A DNA stretch of 64,000 nt from Microbacterium ginsengisoli (lineage in GTDB: Bacteria; Actinomycetota; Actinomycetes; Actinomycetales; Microbacteriaceae). Shown in pieces: positions 60,368 to 64,000 of this stretch. Position numbers and translations under genes: made by a program. The DNA lies in the NCBI RefSeq assembly GCF_000956535.1, contig NZ_JYIY01000065.1, positions 1 through 64,000 of the forward strand. Reading direction: 5' to 3'. The notes under the pieces are model-generated. The model worked only from the letters and a program-made list of their open reading frames with translations, was not told where the DNA came from and did no database searches. Positions within the stretch are counted from its first letter, which is position 1, and every line of letters begins with the position of its first letter.

Positions 60368-61624
60368 TTAGGCGAGTGTGATTGGCGCCGTCGCGGTGGA
60401 GTGGGTCTGCGGTTCACGGCGGCGCCAGTCCTCGGGGATTGCAGCCTCCAGCGCGTCGTCCACGGTGACCACACCGAGGAGGAGCCCTTGCGGGTCGGTG
60501 ACGGGCAGCACCATGAGGTTGAAGTCGGCCATCCTTGTGGTGACGTCGACGACATCGTCCTGCGGCGAGGCGTACACCGGTTCGGAGTCCGCGATCTCCG
60601 CCAGTGGAGTATCCGGGTGGGCCTGAAGTGCCTGGACGAGCCCGACAGACCCGCATAGCGCGCCGCTCTCGTCGACGCAGAAGATGGTGAGGAGGGCCTC
60701 GGCCTGCTGGTCTCGGGCGGAGCGGATGCGCTCGATCGCCGCGCGTACCGTCGCCGTACCGGGAAGGGCAACGAAGTCGAGCCCCATCAGGCCGCCGGCT
60801 GTTTCACCGTGGTAGCCCAGGAGACGAAGAATGGGCGACCGCTGTGCGGTGGGCAGCAGATCCAGGACCGCCTGGCGGCGCTGCTGCGGCAGGTCGAGGA
60901 TGGCGTCGGCGGCGTCGTCGGCGCGCATCCGGCCAAGCACGGAGGCGACCTCGTCCAAGCTGCGGGTTTTGAGTAACTGGGCTTGGCTGTCGTCGTCGAG
61001 CTCTTCGAAGACGTCGGCTTCCAGTTCGGGGTCGCTGTGCACCTGGGTGAGCAGGTCGTCTTGCTCTTTGCTGGAGGCGGATTCGATGATGTCGGCGATC
61101 TGCGCGGCCTTCAGCCGCCGCAACTGACCAAACGGGGACCGGACCAGAGCGGAGGGTTCGTGTCCGATGAGTGCCTCGAAGGAGCGCCAATCGCGGACTG
61201 GCTGGGTTCCGCGTGAGCTGGTGCCGAACCATCGTTGCCGGTGGACATCGAGGCCGGTCACGATCCACCCTTCGGCGGTCTGGGTCAGTGTGATGTCGTG
61301 GGCGCGCACGAGGGCGGCTCGGTCGATGTCGATCAGTCGGTGCCCGAGCACGTCGGCGTTCAGCAGCACTTCGCCGTCGCGGCGCTCGAACGGACGGAGG
61401 TCGAGCCGGGCGGTCGAGAGGGTGATGCGGTCGCGGGTGATCTCGGTCACCGCCGTCACGGGGACGAAGATGGCGGCGGACCCGACCCGGACCACGAGTC
61501 CGGCGAGCTCCGGGTAGTTGTCGGCTCGCAGCCGTACGATCATGTCGGAGAGCTTGCCGAGCGGTTCGCCCTTCGCGTCGATCACGGCATGCTTGAGCAG
61601 TTCGGCCAGTGTGACCGTGTTCAT
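60368..61624 (-). CDS. soluble PRC-barrel/MgtE-N/CBS protein, candidate Mg2+ sensor
   Basis: 418 residues without any membrane segment. Order: PRC-barrel-like N-terminus (LKHAVIDAKGEPLGKLSDMI) with a second similar stretch near 85-135; MgtE intracellular N domain of helical repeats (about 150-280, e.g. ELDDDSQAQLLKTRSLDEVA and MRADDAADAILDLP); GYHGETAGGLM, the counterpart of the MgtE linker; then two CBS domains (about 285-405). In MgtE these domains sense cytoplasmic Mg2+ and gate the pore, but the pore is absent here. It starts 43 bp after the NRAMP-type gene, so the two are probably made together. Confidence 0.88.
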   Translation of the reverse strand: MNTVTLAELLKHAVIDAKGEPLGKLSDMIVRLRADNYPELAGLVVRVGSAAIFVPVTAVTEITRDRITLSTARLDLRPFERRDGEVLLNADVLGHRLIDIDRAALVRAHDITLTQTAEGWIVTGLDVHRQRWFGTSSRGTQPVRDWRSFEALIGHEPSALVRSPFGQLRRLKAAQIADIIESASSKEQDDLLTQVHSDPELEADVFEELDDDSQAQLLKTRSLDEVASVLGRMRADDAADAILDLPQQRRQAVLDLLPTAQRSPILRLLGYHGETAGGLMGLDFVALPGTATVRAAIERIRSARDQQAEALLTIFCVDESGALCGSVGLVQALQAHPDTPLAEIADSEPVYASPQDDVVDVTTRMADFNLMVLPVTDPQGLLLGVVTVDDALEAAIPEDWRRREPQTHSTATAPITLA

Positions 61625-61667: not shown

Positions 61668-63296
61668 CTAGTGGCCCAGAGCCAATTGGATGACTCGGAC
61701 CACCACCAGGACCATGGCCACCAGCAGATACGTGCGCAGGACGGTCAGCCCGATACGCCGACCGGTCGACAGTTCGGGGCGCGAAAGCAGGGCCAACGGT
61801 GGCATCCGCCACGTCGCGCGCTGACTGCGGTCGGGGACGTCGTGCGGCGCAGCCTTCCTGCCGTGTCGTGCGATCGCGAATGCGATGGCGCCGATGACGG
61901 CGATGGCGCTTCCGCCACCGAGGATCCAAAGGATCGTGGGGGCCGTGATGTCGGGGAACAGCACACTCGCGGTCAGCACGATTGACAACATGACGAGGAT
62001 CGCGATCACGGCCGAGGTGAAGATGTTGAGCCACCGACCGTTGACCCACGGCCCGAGGACTTGCTTGTCGTTGCAGAGCAACAGTAGGAACACCGTCGCC
62101 GATGGCAGCAGGACACCGGCGAGGGTCTGCACGCCGACGGTCAGCAGACCGAGCGGGCTGCCGGGGATGAGCACGATGGTCGCAGACACCAGCAGCAACC
62201 CGGCGAACACGGCGTAGAAGCCTTTCGCCTCACGTGGTTTGCGGTGCAGTGAGTGCTTGAGGCCGAGCACGTCCCCGAGCGCGTACGAGGTCGACAGTCC
62301 GACCGCCGCCGCCCCGATGATCGACGCGTCGATCAACGCGATCGCGAACAGAACCCCGGCCACCGGAGCGACGTATTTTCCCAAGCCCTGGGCCACGCCG
62401 AGCGCGTCAGTGAGGTTGCCAAACTCGTGCCGGCCGGCGAAGGTCGCGGCGGTGAACGAGACTATCGCGGCCGCACCGACGATCACGATCGCAATGCCGA
62501 CCCACAGGTCGACTTTCTCGTAGTTCATGAATCGTGGGGTGATGCGCTTGTCGATCACGTAGGACTGCTGGAAAAACAACTGCCACGGCGCCACCGTCGT
62601 TCCCACGATTCCGATAATCAGCAGCATCACCGTCGACAGTTCCGCGCCTGCCGGCATCCCGGGGATGACGAAATCGCGTGCGATCTGCCCCAGCGGCGGG
62701 TGCACCATGACGAAGATCGGGATCAGCAACAGGGAGCCGACGATTAGCACCATGCAGACCCGTTCGAACCGTTTGAACGACCCGGTGCTGACCGCGGCAA
62801 TCACTGCCAGCGCTGCCACGATCACACCGGGAATCTGCGGGATCCCCAGGTAGCTTAGGCCCAGGCTGATGCCGATGAACTCAGTCACGATCGTCAAAGC
62901 GTTCAGAATGAACAGATCGATCACGCTAAACGCGCCCCAGAACTTCCCGAACCGCTCCAGGATCAGGCGCGCGTGACCGACACCGGTGACCGCACCCAGG
63001 CGTAACACCATCTCCTGATTGACATACAGCACCGGCACCAGCAGCAGCAACGTCCACAGCAGGGTTGTTCCGTAGTTCTGTCCGGCCTGCGTGTAGGTGC
63101 CGAACGCTCCAGCATCATTGTCGCCGACCATCACGATCAGGCCGGGGCCGACGATCGCCAGCAGGGTGCGGAATTTCGCGGACAGTTTCTGACGCGGCGC
63201 ATCGTCACCGACCCGGATCGTGCCAAGAGCGCCCTCGATATCCCCGACGTGGGCGGAATCGAGAACGGCGCTGGTGTTATCAGTATTCGTGGTCAT
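61668..63296 (-). CDS. NRAMP-superfamily transporter, probable NrmT-type Mg2+ transporter
   Basis: 542 residues with 11-12 membrane helices. The fold is NRAMP (GPGLIVMVGDNDAGAFGTYT in TM1), but the metal-site motif DPGN is replaced by DNDAG (59-63), and TM6 reads VAPWQLFFQQ (235-244) instead of the usual A-x-x-M-P-H-N. Loss of the TM6 Met is the feature separating NRAMP-related Mg transporters from Mn/Fe NRAMPs. An M-box in its leader supports Mg2+ as substrate. GGAGGAGG precedes the ATG. Charged N-terminus, about 40 residues. Confidence 0.9.
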   Translation of the reverse strand: MTTNTDNTSAVLDSAHVGDIEGALGTIRVGDDAPRQKLSAKFRTLLAIVGPGLIVMVGDNDAGAFGTYTQAGQNYGTTLLWTLLLLVPVLYVNQEMVLRLGAVTGVGHARLILERFGKFWGAFSVIDLFILNALTIVTEFIGISLGLSYLGIPQIPGVIVAALAVIAAVSTGSFKRFERVCMVLIVGSLLLIPIFVMVHPPLGQIARDFVIPGMPAGAELSTVMLLIIGIVGTTVAPWQLFFQQSYVIDKRITPRFMNYEKVDLWVGIAIVIVGAAAIVSFTAATFAGRHEFGNLTDALGVAQGLGKYVAPVAGVLFAIALIDASIIGAAAVGLSTSYALGDVLGLKHSLHRKPREAKGFYAVFAGLLLVSATIVLIPGSPLGLLTVGVQTLAGVLLPSATVFLLLLCNDKQVLGPWVNGRWLNIFTSAVIAILVMLSIVLTASVLFPDITAPTILWILGGGSAIAVIGAIAFAIARHGRKAAPHDVPDRSQRATWRMPPLALLSRPELSTGRRIGLTVLRTYLLVAMVLVVVRVIQLALGH

Positions 63297-63426
63297 GGGG
63301 CACTACCTCCTCCCGCCGAAACGGGATGCGCAAAATGGTCGGGTGATCGGAGGTTCTCCTGCGCCCAGCATCTGTACACGCCCGACCTGAACGTCGCGTA
63401 GCGACGCGGTGAACGCGCTTCCGGTT

Positions 63427-63443
63427 CGCCCGATCAGCGGGCG
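63427..63443 (-). other. leader hairpin overlapping the small-ORF stop codon
   Basis: In the RNA (minus strand) CGCCC and GGGCG pair around a 7-base loop containing the UGA stop of the 16-codon ORF. A second perfect hairpin, CGTCGC-GTA-GCGACG (63392-63406), follows downstream, and near the coding start TCCCG/CGGGA can pair just before GGAGG. Ribosomes on the small ORF could influence these structures (inference). Confidence 0.5.
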
Positions 63444-63484
63444 GCGGACGGGGGCAGGAGACACATATTATGGCTCTCGCTCAT
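63434..63484 (-). CDS. 16-codon leader ORF between the M-box and the transporter
   Basis: Reads MSESHNMCLLPPSAAR and then TGA. AAGGAG (complement of 63492-63497) lies 7 nt before the ATG, an ideal Shine-Dalgarno and better than that of most genes here. It contains a Pro-Pro pair and sits between the riboswitch and the transporter gene. Proline-containing leader ORFs are known in other Mg2+-transporter mRNAs (for example mgtL), but this one has no recognised homologue. Chance occurrence is possible. Confidence 0.5.
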   Translation of the reverse strand: MSESHNMCLLPPSAAR

Positions 63485-63550
63485 CGACGTGCTCCTTCCA
63501 CTCAGCCGGCACACACGACGAGGCCCAGCGAAACCGCCGGGTTGCACCTC

Positions 63551-63706
63551 TCCTCGTAAGACCTTTGGCACTTCGCGGCGTGAACCCGTCAACGGGAGCC
63601 AATCGGGGCCACCCCTTAAGCCGGGAGGGCCTGTCCTGACCCGGGGCGTCTTTCGACGTTCGGGGTCGCTGGCTTGTATCCGCGAAGGAGCCTCAGCTAA
63701 CGATCA
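63551..63706 (-). ncRNA. M-box (ykoK) magnesium riboswitch
   Basis: Read on the minus strand, the conserved blocks appear in order: ATCGTTAGCTGAGGCTCC (63704-63687), GGATACAAGCCAGCGACCC, AACGTCGAAAGACGCC, a GGGTCAGGACAG segment and the closing GTGCCAAAGGTCTTACGAG (63571-63553). These match the M-box consensus (GUUAGGUGAGGCUCC, CAAAGACGCC, GGGUCA, GUGCNAAAGCUCUACGA), including the 5'/3' closing helix. It senses Mg2+ and lowers expression of the downstream transporter when Mg2+ is abundant. The 255 nt to the coding start hold the expression platform, hairpins and a small ORF. Confidence 0.93.
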
Positions 63707-63722
63707 GCACCTTGCGGCCCCG

Positions 63723-63751
63723 ACTATACGCTCCGGTAGAGGCTCCCGCAA
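63723..63751 (-). promoter_or_regulatory. promoter of the M-box operon
   Basis: On the minus strand TTGCGG (63751-63746), 17 bp, TATAGT (63728-63723). This is a good housekeeping-type promoter with ideal spacing. The transcript would begin about 10 nt before the first conserved M-box base. Confidence 0.75.
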
Positions 63752-63849
63752 ACGGTGCGAAATCGATGCGCTGCAGGTGAGGATCGCCTACCCTGCCTCG
63801 CCGAGCAGAGACACATGTGGTTATCTGGCAGCTCAGAAGGAGGAGGAAC

Positions 63850-64000
63850 ATGAGCGATTTTGGATACCTGCTCCTGCTCACATCAGACGCGCCGAGCGGC
63901 TCCGAACTCGGGCAGCCCGCGCAAGCGATAGCCGCTGCGATCGCGGAGAGCGGGATCCAGATCGACTCGATCATTACCGGTAGCGATGCCCGTGAAAGTG
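63850..64000 (+). CDS. N-terminal part of a possible DsrE/TusD-like protein (partial)
   Basis: An open frame starts at ATG 63850 behind a strong SD (AAGGAGGAGG) and runs off the window after 50 codons. It begins MSDFGYLLLLTSDAPSGSEL and continues with a helix rich in Ala (QAIAAAIAESG) and the strand IDSIITGSDA. The strand-helix-strand pattern resembles DsrE/TusD sulfur-relay proteins, where a hydrophobic first strand is followed by a long helix, but the diagnostic cysteine region lies outside the window. It is divergent from the M-box operon. Confidence 0.45.
   Translation, partial: MSDFGYLLLLTSDAPSGSELGQPAQAIAAAIAESGIQIDSIITGSDARES

Follow-up and report, generated by a model that had tools for sequence, protein, structure and literature searches.

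The window, the whole stretch of 64,000 nucleotides from Microbacterium ginsengisoli that we analysed, carries on its minus strand an M-box Mg2+ riboswitch, a short open reading frame (uORF), an Nramp-related transporter gene and a second gene behind it. The features of the locus are as follows.

60368..61624, minus strand: MgtE_N/CBS protein, second gene (PF03448, PF00571).
61668..63296, minus strand: Nramp-related transporter (PF01566; best PDB sequence match 7qia).
63306..63326, minus strand: short hairpin directly beside the SD of the transporter (AGGAGG, 63311-63306); z -1.03, not significant.
63427..63443, minus strand: hairpin with the uORF stop codon in its loop; -11.1 kcal/mol, not conserved.
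63434..63463, minus strand: 3' half of the uORF, C-rich and G-poor (rut-like composition); the last 21 nt (63454-63434) have C 0.62 and G 0.24.
63434..63484, minus strand: uORF MSESHNMCLLPPSAAR; ATG at 63484, TGA at 63434, 16 codons.
63467..63472, minus strand: uORF core codons 5-6, CAT AAT (the family most often has GAT AGT or CAT AGT).
63480..63522, minus strand: OFF hairpin enclosing the uORF SD and ATG; -18.6 kcal/mol, z -3.4.
63492..63497, minus strand: Shine-Dalgarno of the uORF, AAGGAG, read from the sequence; 7-nt spacer.
63518..63523, minus strand: CCTCGT, candidate anti-TIR from duplex and fold results; its partner is 63557-63552 or the uORF start region.
63543..63711, minus strand: M-box (ykoK) Mg2+ riboswitch aptamer, RF00380, 126.2 bits, full length.
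63552..63557, minus strand: ACGAGG near the aptamer 3' end, overlapping the P1 3' strand; candidate anti-anti-TIR and perfect complement of 63523-63518.

The transporter matched PDB entry 7qia best (E 1.2e-53), which we take to be an NRMT structure, followed by 10ky (5.8e-22) and MntH chains (1.8e-16 and weaker). Judged by these matches, it is nearer to NRMT than to MntH and probably an NRMT/NrmT-type Mg2+ transporter. An M-box was found in one of the 59 genomes of the genus sample, the window's own, and loci related to this one lie on Leifsonia, Arthrobacter and Pseudarthrobacter plasmids; the M-box locus (63711-60368) was therefore probably acquired. The source assembly is listed with 6.3% contamination. 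A second Nramp gene of the genome lies at G000:C55:15420-16502, and the sole M-box of the genome is that of the window. A divergent ORF on the plus strand (63850-64000), beginning MSDFGYLLLLTSDA, has no Pfam match for the 50 residues that fall within the window; a similar ORF adjoins the M-box of a locus from another genus of the family (L096).

The uORF lies between the M-box and the transporter with AAGGAG 7 nt upstream, all positions being as the first-pass annotation had put them, and starts at +59 behind the aptamer. The same annotation pointed to three structures further downstream. The hairpin around the stop codon is as stable as claimed (-11.1 kcal/mol, z -3.1, equalled by none of 200 shuffles); a role for it is not supported, the stop falling in a hairpin loop in 32 of the 97 leaders of the family described below vs 17-36 of 97 at four shifted positions. 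The second hairpin, which had been called perfect (z -0.66), and the structure touching the transporter SD (z -1.03) were no better than shuffles. The most significant of the hairpins folded in the window is the OFF hairpin at 63522-63480 (1 of 200 shuffles as good), which had been overlooked. A simple scan for intrinsic terminators found 0 terminator-like sites in 63200-64000.

We compared the uORF with other M-box leaders. Overlapping genome samples were searched for the M-box at the level of the genus (1 of 59 genomes), the family (19/398), the order (15/396), the class (26/394) and the phylum (34/396), giving, with 17 further regions and the 33 M-box+Nramp leaders described below, a set of 140 M-box leaders. 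A short ORF of one family was assigned to 97 of these, nine of them uncertain members (L061, L095, L101, L154, L159, L169, L176, L178, L188). The 97 rows are not independent: the genome samples overlap, 14 leaders belong to the Streptomyces type, and 29 come from a single genus that its PE genes and several M-boxes suggest is mycobacterium-like. The other 43 leaders comprise two duplicates (L003, L028), two in which a uORF is present, with an N-run or a distant SD (L119, L078), three with the core and no usual start codon (L132, L137, L145) and 36 in which a family ORF is absent or unclear. The leaders outside the family came mainly from the phylum-wide search and from a group of the same order (L180-L187), in which the main gene stands close behind the aptamer. 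Family ORFs are 13-106 codons long (median 25, three over 50), start with ATG (75), GTG (14), TTG (7) or ATT (1, the mycobacterium-like L151) and begin 51-243 nt behind the aptamer (median 87).

Among the best 80 matches to the Nramp protein, 33 have an M-box and 47 do not, and a family ORF stands behind the M-box in all 33, with a weak or distant SD in L012 and L078. A written motif, composed after the sequences had been seen, found 26 of the 33 leaders vs 0 of 330 shuffled ones (missing L012, L015, L024, L061, L070, L078 and L080). The plasmid loci L082-L084, L192 and L193 also carry the uORF, the M-box of the last two being recognised by sight only. Ten sampled downstream genes encode a P-type ATPase (two), CorA, MgtE_N/CBS, MgtE, MgtC, PE, Nramp and an ABC permease (two). 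The comparison of sequences thus indicates that the uORF is no chance ORF and that it belongs to a family placed ahead of many actinobacterial Mg2+ transporters.

The family shares a core, (Gly/Ser)-(Asp/His/Ser)-Ser-(Pro/Arg), which stays in frame with the start although the start distance varies by whole codons. The Ser codon of the core is AGT in 77 of 97 leaders, or 81 of 97 with L128-L130 and L178 re-indexed by one codon. AGT against other Ser codons stands at 77:2 in the core and at 66:312 at codons 3 and later of the same ORFs (Fisher p 2e-44), statistics that are partly circular because the start was placed manually in 26 leaders, for which the rule had chosen another ORF or none, and the core codon index by rule plus hand. 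Codon 2, where Ser is AGT in 37 of 50 cases, was left out of this comparison; in eleven Nramp genes of Streptomyces-type loci, a further comparison for the core Ser codon, AGT accounts for 1 of 255. Where the core codon is not AGT, it is AAA, AGA, AAT, GAA or one of a few others; 11 leaders carry a residue other than Ser6 (Lys, Arg, Asn or Glu). The codon before the core AGT ends in T in 74 of 97 leaders, and a -1-frame stop lies across the core junction in 69 of 97 (73 with the four rows re-indexed), including 9 of the 11 leaders with AAA, AAT, AGA or GAA at the core. We do not claim frameshifting at this stop, as leaders with GAC AGT have none.

The window copy reads AAT (Asn6) and ATG (Met7) at the core, unlike the usual Ser6 and the frequent Pro7 of the family (48 of 97 members). 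AAT also occurs in L009, and the opening MSESH is identical in L002, where the start is GTG and the Nramp protein is 88% identical to that of the window. We therefore file the window uORF, by position and kinship, as a divergent member. Stalling at its Pro-Pro, as suggested by the first-pass annotation, is not borne out in the family, where only 11 of 97 peptides contain Pro-Pro.

The conserved product might itself be the functional unit, a micropeptide acting for example as a partner of the transporter, with the position behind the M-box setting its expression only. Such a role was suggested for Rv1805A of Mycobacterium tuberculosis by its authors, who describe an M-box-independent paralogue, Rv0115A (PMC12810186), and our Streptomyces-type set shows good conservation of the C-terminus, often SSGTR or SGTR. 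Set against this, C-termini differ between clades, lengths spread over 13-106 codons around the median of 25, the ORF precedes unrelated transporter families and the constancy of AGT lies at the level of the codon. Purifying selection on the peptide was not significant, with pN/pS at 0.64-1.11 in five runs, three under the shuffled mean (16-27% of shuffles as low) and two above it. We regard a micropeptide as unlikely. The lack of significant peptide selection together with a core at the codon level suggests that the thing kept is a translated frame with particular codons, not a protein.

Conversely, the RNA alone might matter, with the AUAGUCC core serving as a binding site for a protein or an RNA and the ORF being incidental. 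Across 73 comparable leaders, nucleotides +13 to +19 of the core show 71-95% conservation, and the mycobacterium-like L132, L137 and L145 have the core but no usual start codon. This reading sits poorly with a core that is in frame with the start at varying distances. Nor did we find a complementary partner clearly above chance in the aptamer, linker or downstream region: in almost all regions and registers, exact complements of the core were no commoner than expected by chance. When G-U pairs were allowed, 6-mers in one register reached 48 of 97 in the aptamer vs 35.6 expected, and 12 vs 6.2 in the TIR and early ORF, while other registers and 7-mers in the aptamer were at or below expectation. 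Outside Mg2+ leaders the motif is at background level, the exact pattern giving 25 matches in 148 genomes vs 29 for the reversed control; 11 of the 25 are in frame, including the 4 that lie in known M-box leaders. An RNA site with an incidental ORF thus seems improbable to us.

Next, we examined the 47 M-box-less Nramp loci among the best 80 relatives, 18 of them actinobacterial and 29 proteobacterial by record titles, which are uneven labels (L004, L019, L021 and L022 stand under proteobacterial titles). M-box-less status was first assigned by the Rfam gathering score and then searched at E<=1 in a set without L032 and L074. The uORF is kept in 13 of the 18 actinobacterial loci, namely L007 (weakly), L008, L013, L014, L020, L025, L026, L027, L034, L037, L047, L053 and L059, four of them with aptamer stubs; in L032, L033, L048, L052 and L074 there was no uORF or no clear one. 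In the thirteen uORF-keeping loci cmscan found no RF00380 at E<=1. The written motif occurs in 14 of the 18 (the thirteen and L048, which we did not count) vs 1 of 180 shuffled sequences.

Several of these leaders align with intact ones from within or behind the aptamer. By local alignment, in which divergence could mimic part of a loss, homology starts at aptamer position 136 of 181 in L037 and 152 of 176 in L047 and L053, a stub begins at position 125 of 170 in L025, and in L020 and L027 homology starts 33-47 nt behind the aptamer, past the anti-SD. We read such loci as cases, in several lineages, where the aptamer was probably lost and the uORF stayed. A tree of 62 Nramp proteins gave 10 changes for the M-box and 2 for the uORF, counts from a quick search without bootstrap that left 22 of 59 branches open, with states scored by eye, and which horizontal transfer (plasmid copies L082-L084, L191-L193) may blur. 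The first-pass annotation had taken the uORF for a second control layer and had named conservation of the reading frame in relatives as a check. The frame is conserved, so that this check did not refute the claim; from the 13 of 18 retained uORFs and the 10 vs 2 changes, the uORF looks like a separable layer of control. Loci with the uORF and no riboswitch have already split the two in evolution and allow a direct test, in harmless soil bacteria, of what the uORF does by itself.

Ten of the thirteen loci (L008, L013, L014, L020, L027, L034, L037, L047, L053, L059) carry a TTGCG/CGCAA-like element upstream of the uORF, present only as GTGCGCAAG in L047 and L053; the dyad pattern was likewise composed after the sequences had been seen. 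Upstream of the M-box, the element occurs in 5 of 140 M-box leaders (L036, L039, L043, L055, L081). Divergent genes with an ArsR-type HTH_5 domain adjoin L008, L014 and L191, the last a plasmid locus with the same type of leader as L008; the frame adjoining L059 had no match. The element is possibly an ArsR-type operator. In the plasmid Nramp loci L194-L197, neither the M-box core nor the uORF was found in the roughly 500 nt inspected; in L194 and L196 a CBS protein gene comes first and Nramp second, and in L197 Nramp stands behind hisE.

Among the 29 M-box-less loci with proteobacterial titles, a first strict pattern found none. The written motif occurs in two, L068 (Pseudomonas fluorescens) and L075 (Methylocapsa), vs 1 of 290 shuffled sequences. 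Both ORFs are SD-led, and their peptides (MDPSNSSPVTL... and MNDGPSRPADR...) look like family members, a hint that the gate may travel even with the transporter.

We then considered how the aptamer might reach the uORF. In the window, the aptamer end and the linker are predicted to form a duplex of -19.7 kcal/mol, and CCTCGT (63523-63518) extends into the 5' side of the hairpin enclosing the uORF start. Coupling of the uORF to the riboswitch is plausible on this basis, since the start-region hairpin is predicted to compete with the aptamer 3' end; base pairing between the uORF and the SD of the transporter is not supported, at a mean z of +0.11 over 96 leaders. Across the 97 leaders, aptamer-end-linker pairing was better than shuffles (mean z -0.60), and linker-TIR pairing was no better than with shuffled linkers (mean z -0.07). 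The predicted openness of the SD over 96 leaders rose from 0.22 to 0.32 with the aptamer 3' strand (0.27 with a shuffled strand), and that of the whole TIR from 0.35 to 0.38 (shuffled 0.35; p 5e-4 vs shuffled; 65 of the 96 leaders exceeding the shuffled mean), so the modelled opening is a small effect. In the same ensemble calculation the window showed no gain, with a TIR openness of 0.24 both without and with the strand. For the window, a translational platform is thus plausible; for the family, it has moderate support. We also tried the uORF as an anti-SD of its own SD and set this aside as weak (mean z -0.45 over 97).

On balance, and by a modest lean, we favour the reading that the uORF is an actinobacterial regulatory leader-peptide gene before Mg2+-transport genes, acting as the output gate of the leader, with the M-box as one of several possible inputs. 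The family, its position, the SD, the in-frame core and the retention without an aptamer follow from comparing sequences; that the window uORF is translated we infer. With Mg2+ bound, the 3' strand would stay within the aptamer and CCTCGTCG, a segment of the linker, would fold onto the uORF start region, leaving the uORF untranslated. At low Mg2+, the ACGAGG at the aptamer 3' end would capture CCTCGTCG and the uORF would be translated; its translation would cover the C-rich, G-poor 3' half, deny access to Rho and let RNA polymerase reach the transporter. In aptamer-less loci the uORF would survive, because the Rho-denial step needs the uORF only, and a promoter-level regulator would be in charge. 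Beyond nucleotide 30, C exceeds G in 88 of 97 family ORFs, a C-richness that is weak evidence for what we consider the likeliest form of control, a translation-gated one of the Rho type. In the M. tuberculosis pe20 leader, lacZ fusions supported such a platform, with Rho-dependent termination; the main termination site there lies upstream of uORF2 (PMC12810186), so Rho need not depend on the translation of uORF2.

The main rival to the Rho-type gate is that the uORF is a Mg2+ sensor read by the ribosome itself, in which early acidic and proline codons would destabilise ribosomes at low Mg2+ and alter Rho access or folding, with the M-box as a second, dispensable sensor. Asp and Glu make up 17.8% of residues 2-7 vs 4.0% of the rest, at least one acidic residue stands at 2-7 in 81 of 97 peptides, Pro7 is present in 48, several classes of Mg2+ transporter are found among the ten sampled downstream genes, and the uORF is kept after loss of the M-box. 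MgtQ works through Asp2 and Glu5 (PMC8092293) and MgtL through EPDP (PMC11282234). However, acidic residues are absent from positions 2-7 in 16 of 97 peptides and number at least two in only 22; the M-box-less L008, L013, L025 and L034 have none there either. Nor does peptide chemistry account for the constancy of AGT, and 11 leaders have Lys, Arg, Asn or Glu instead of Ser6. We consider a ribosome-based sensor of this kind doubtful. A broader generalisation, that the actinobacteria-wide leader ORF is a self-standing, ribosome-read sensor of Mg2+ (or of translation state), more stable than the M-box and with riboswitches and ArsR-type regulators as interchangeable inputs, is put forward tentatively, as a possibility that we would sooner doubt than expect.

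We compared the leader to known systems. The nearest is the pe20/rv1535 leader of M. tuberculosis, in which an M-box, a pyrimidine-rich anti-SD and an SD-led uORF2 (Rv1805A) follow one another, the pairing competes with the aptamer end, and Rho acts with no intrinsic terminator (PMC12810186). The published peptide has Pro7, as do the mycobacterium-like loci here (MSPGDSP), of which L131 precedes a PE-family gene; the window copy does not. The genes downstream there are pe20 and rv1535, whereas an Nramp-related transporter follows here. uORF2/Rv1805A appears to belong to the same family as our uORF. Its authors call it mycobacteria-specific and its role unclear (PMC12810186), whereas the uORF here is found in many Actinomycetes and also without an M-box; this wide distribution questions the published confinement of the peptide to mycobacteria. 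In M. abscessus, ribosome profiling found a ribosome-protected uORF, a VcgB homologue, behind the M-box of the Mg2+ transporter gene mgtE, and the authors mention tandem Mg2+-transporter attenuators (PMC4974804). The reported distribution of VcgB, restricted to Rhodococcus equi and mainly pathogenic mycobacteria (PMC4974804), is narrow in comparison with that of the uORF here. The published M-box uORFs among the open-licence papers listed are mycobacterial only (PMC12810186, PMC4974804), an absence that carries little weight. The distribution of the uORF, the core at the codon level and the retention without a riboswitch are new here.

The likeness to the enteric mgtL leaders, also put forward by the first-pass annotation, holds in principle only. 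In mgtL and mgtQ a short ORF with early acidic residues precedes a Mg2+ transporter and its translation controls downstream expression (PMC11282234, PMC8092293). The window peptide has one acidic residue (Glu3) and neither an EPDP-like motif nor paired acidic codons, and the family shows no pairing to the SD of the main gene. The clostridial M-box-Nramp (NrmT) leaders share the M-box, the Nramp-related Mg2+ transporter and an MgtE_N-like partner gene, and differ in having an intrinsic terminator (PMC4072509). The term Actinobacteria does not occur in that paper, and the passages considered make no mention of a uORF (PMC4072509). The window also differs from ykoK-type transcriptional M-boxes, the simple scan having found no intrinsic terminator behind the aptamer.

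Finally, in L089 and L126 an M-box and a uORF stand before an ABC permease (BPD_transp_1), and L090 has a similar protein. This permease is possibly a further Mg2+-related transporter.
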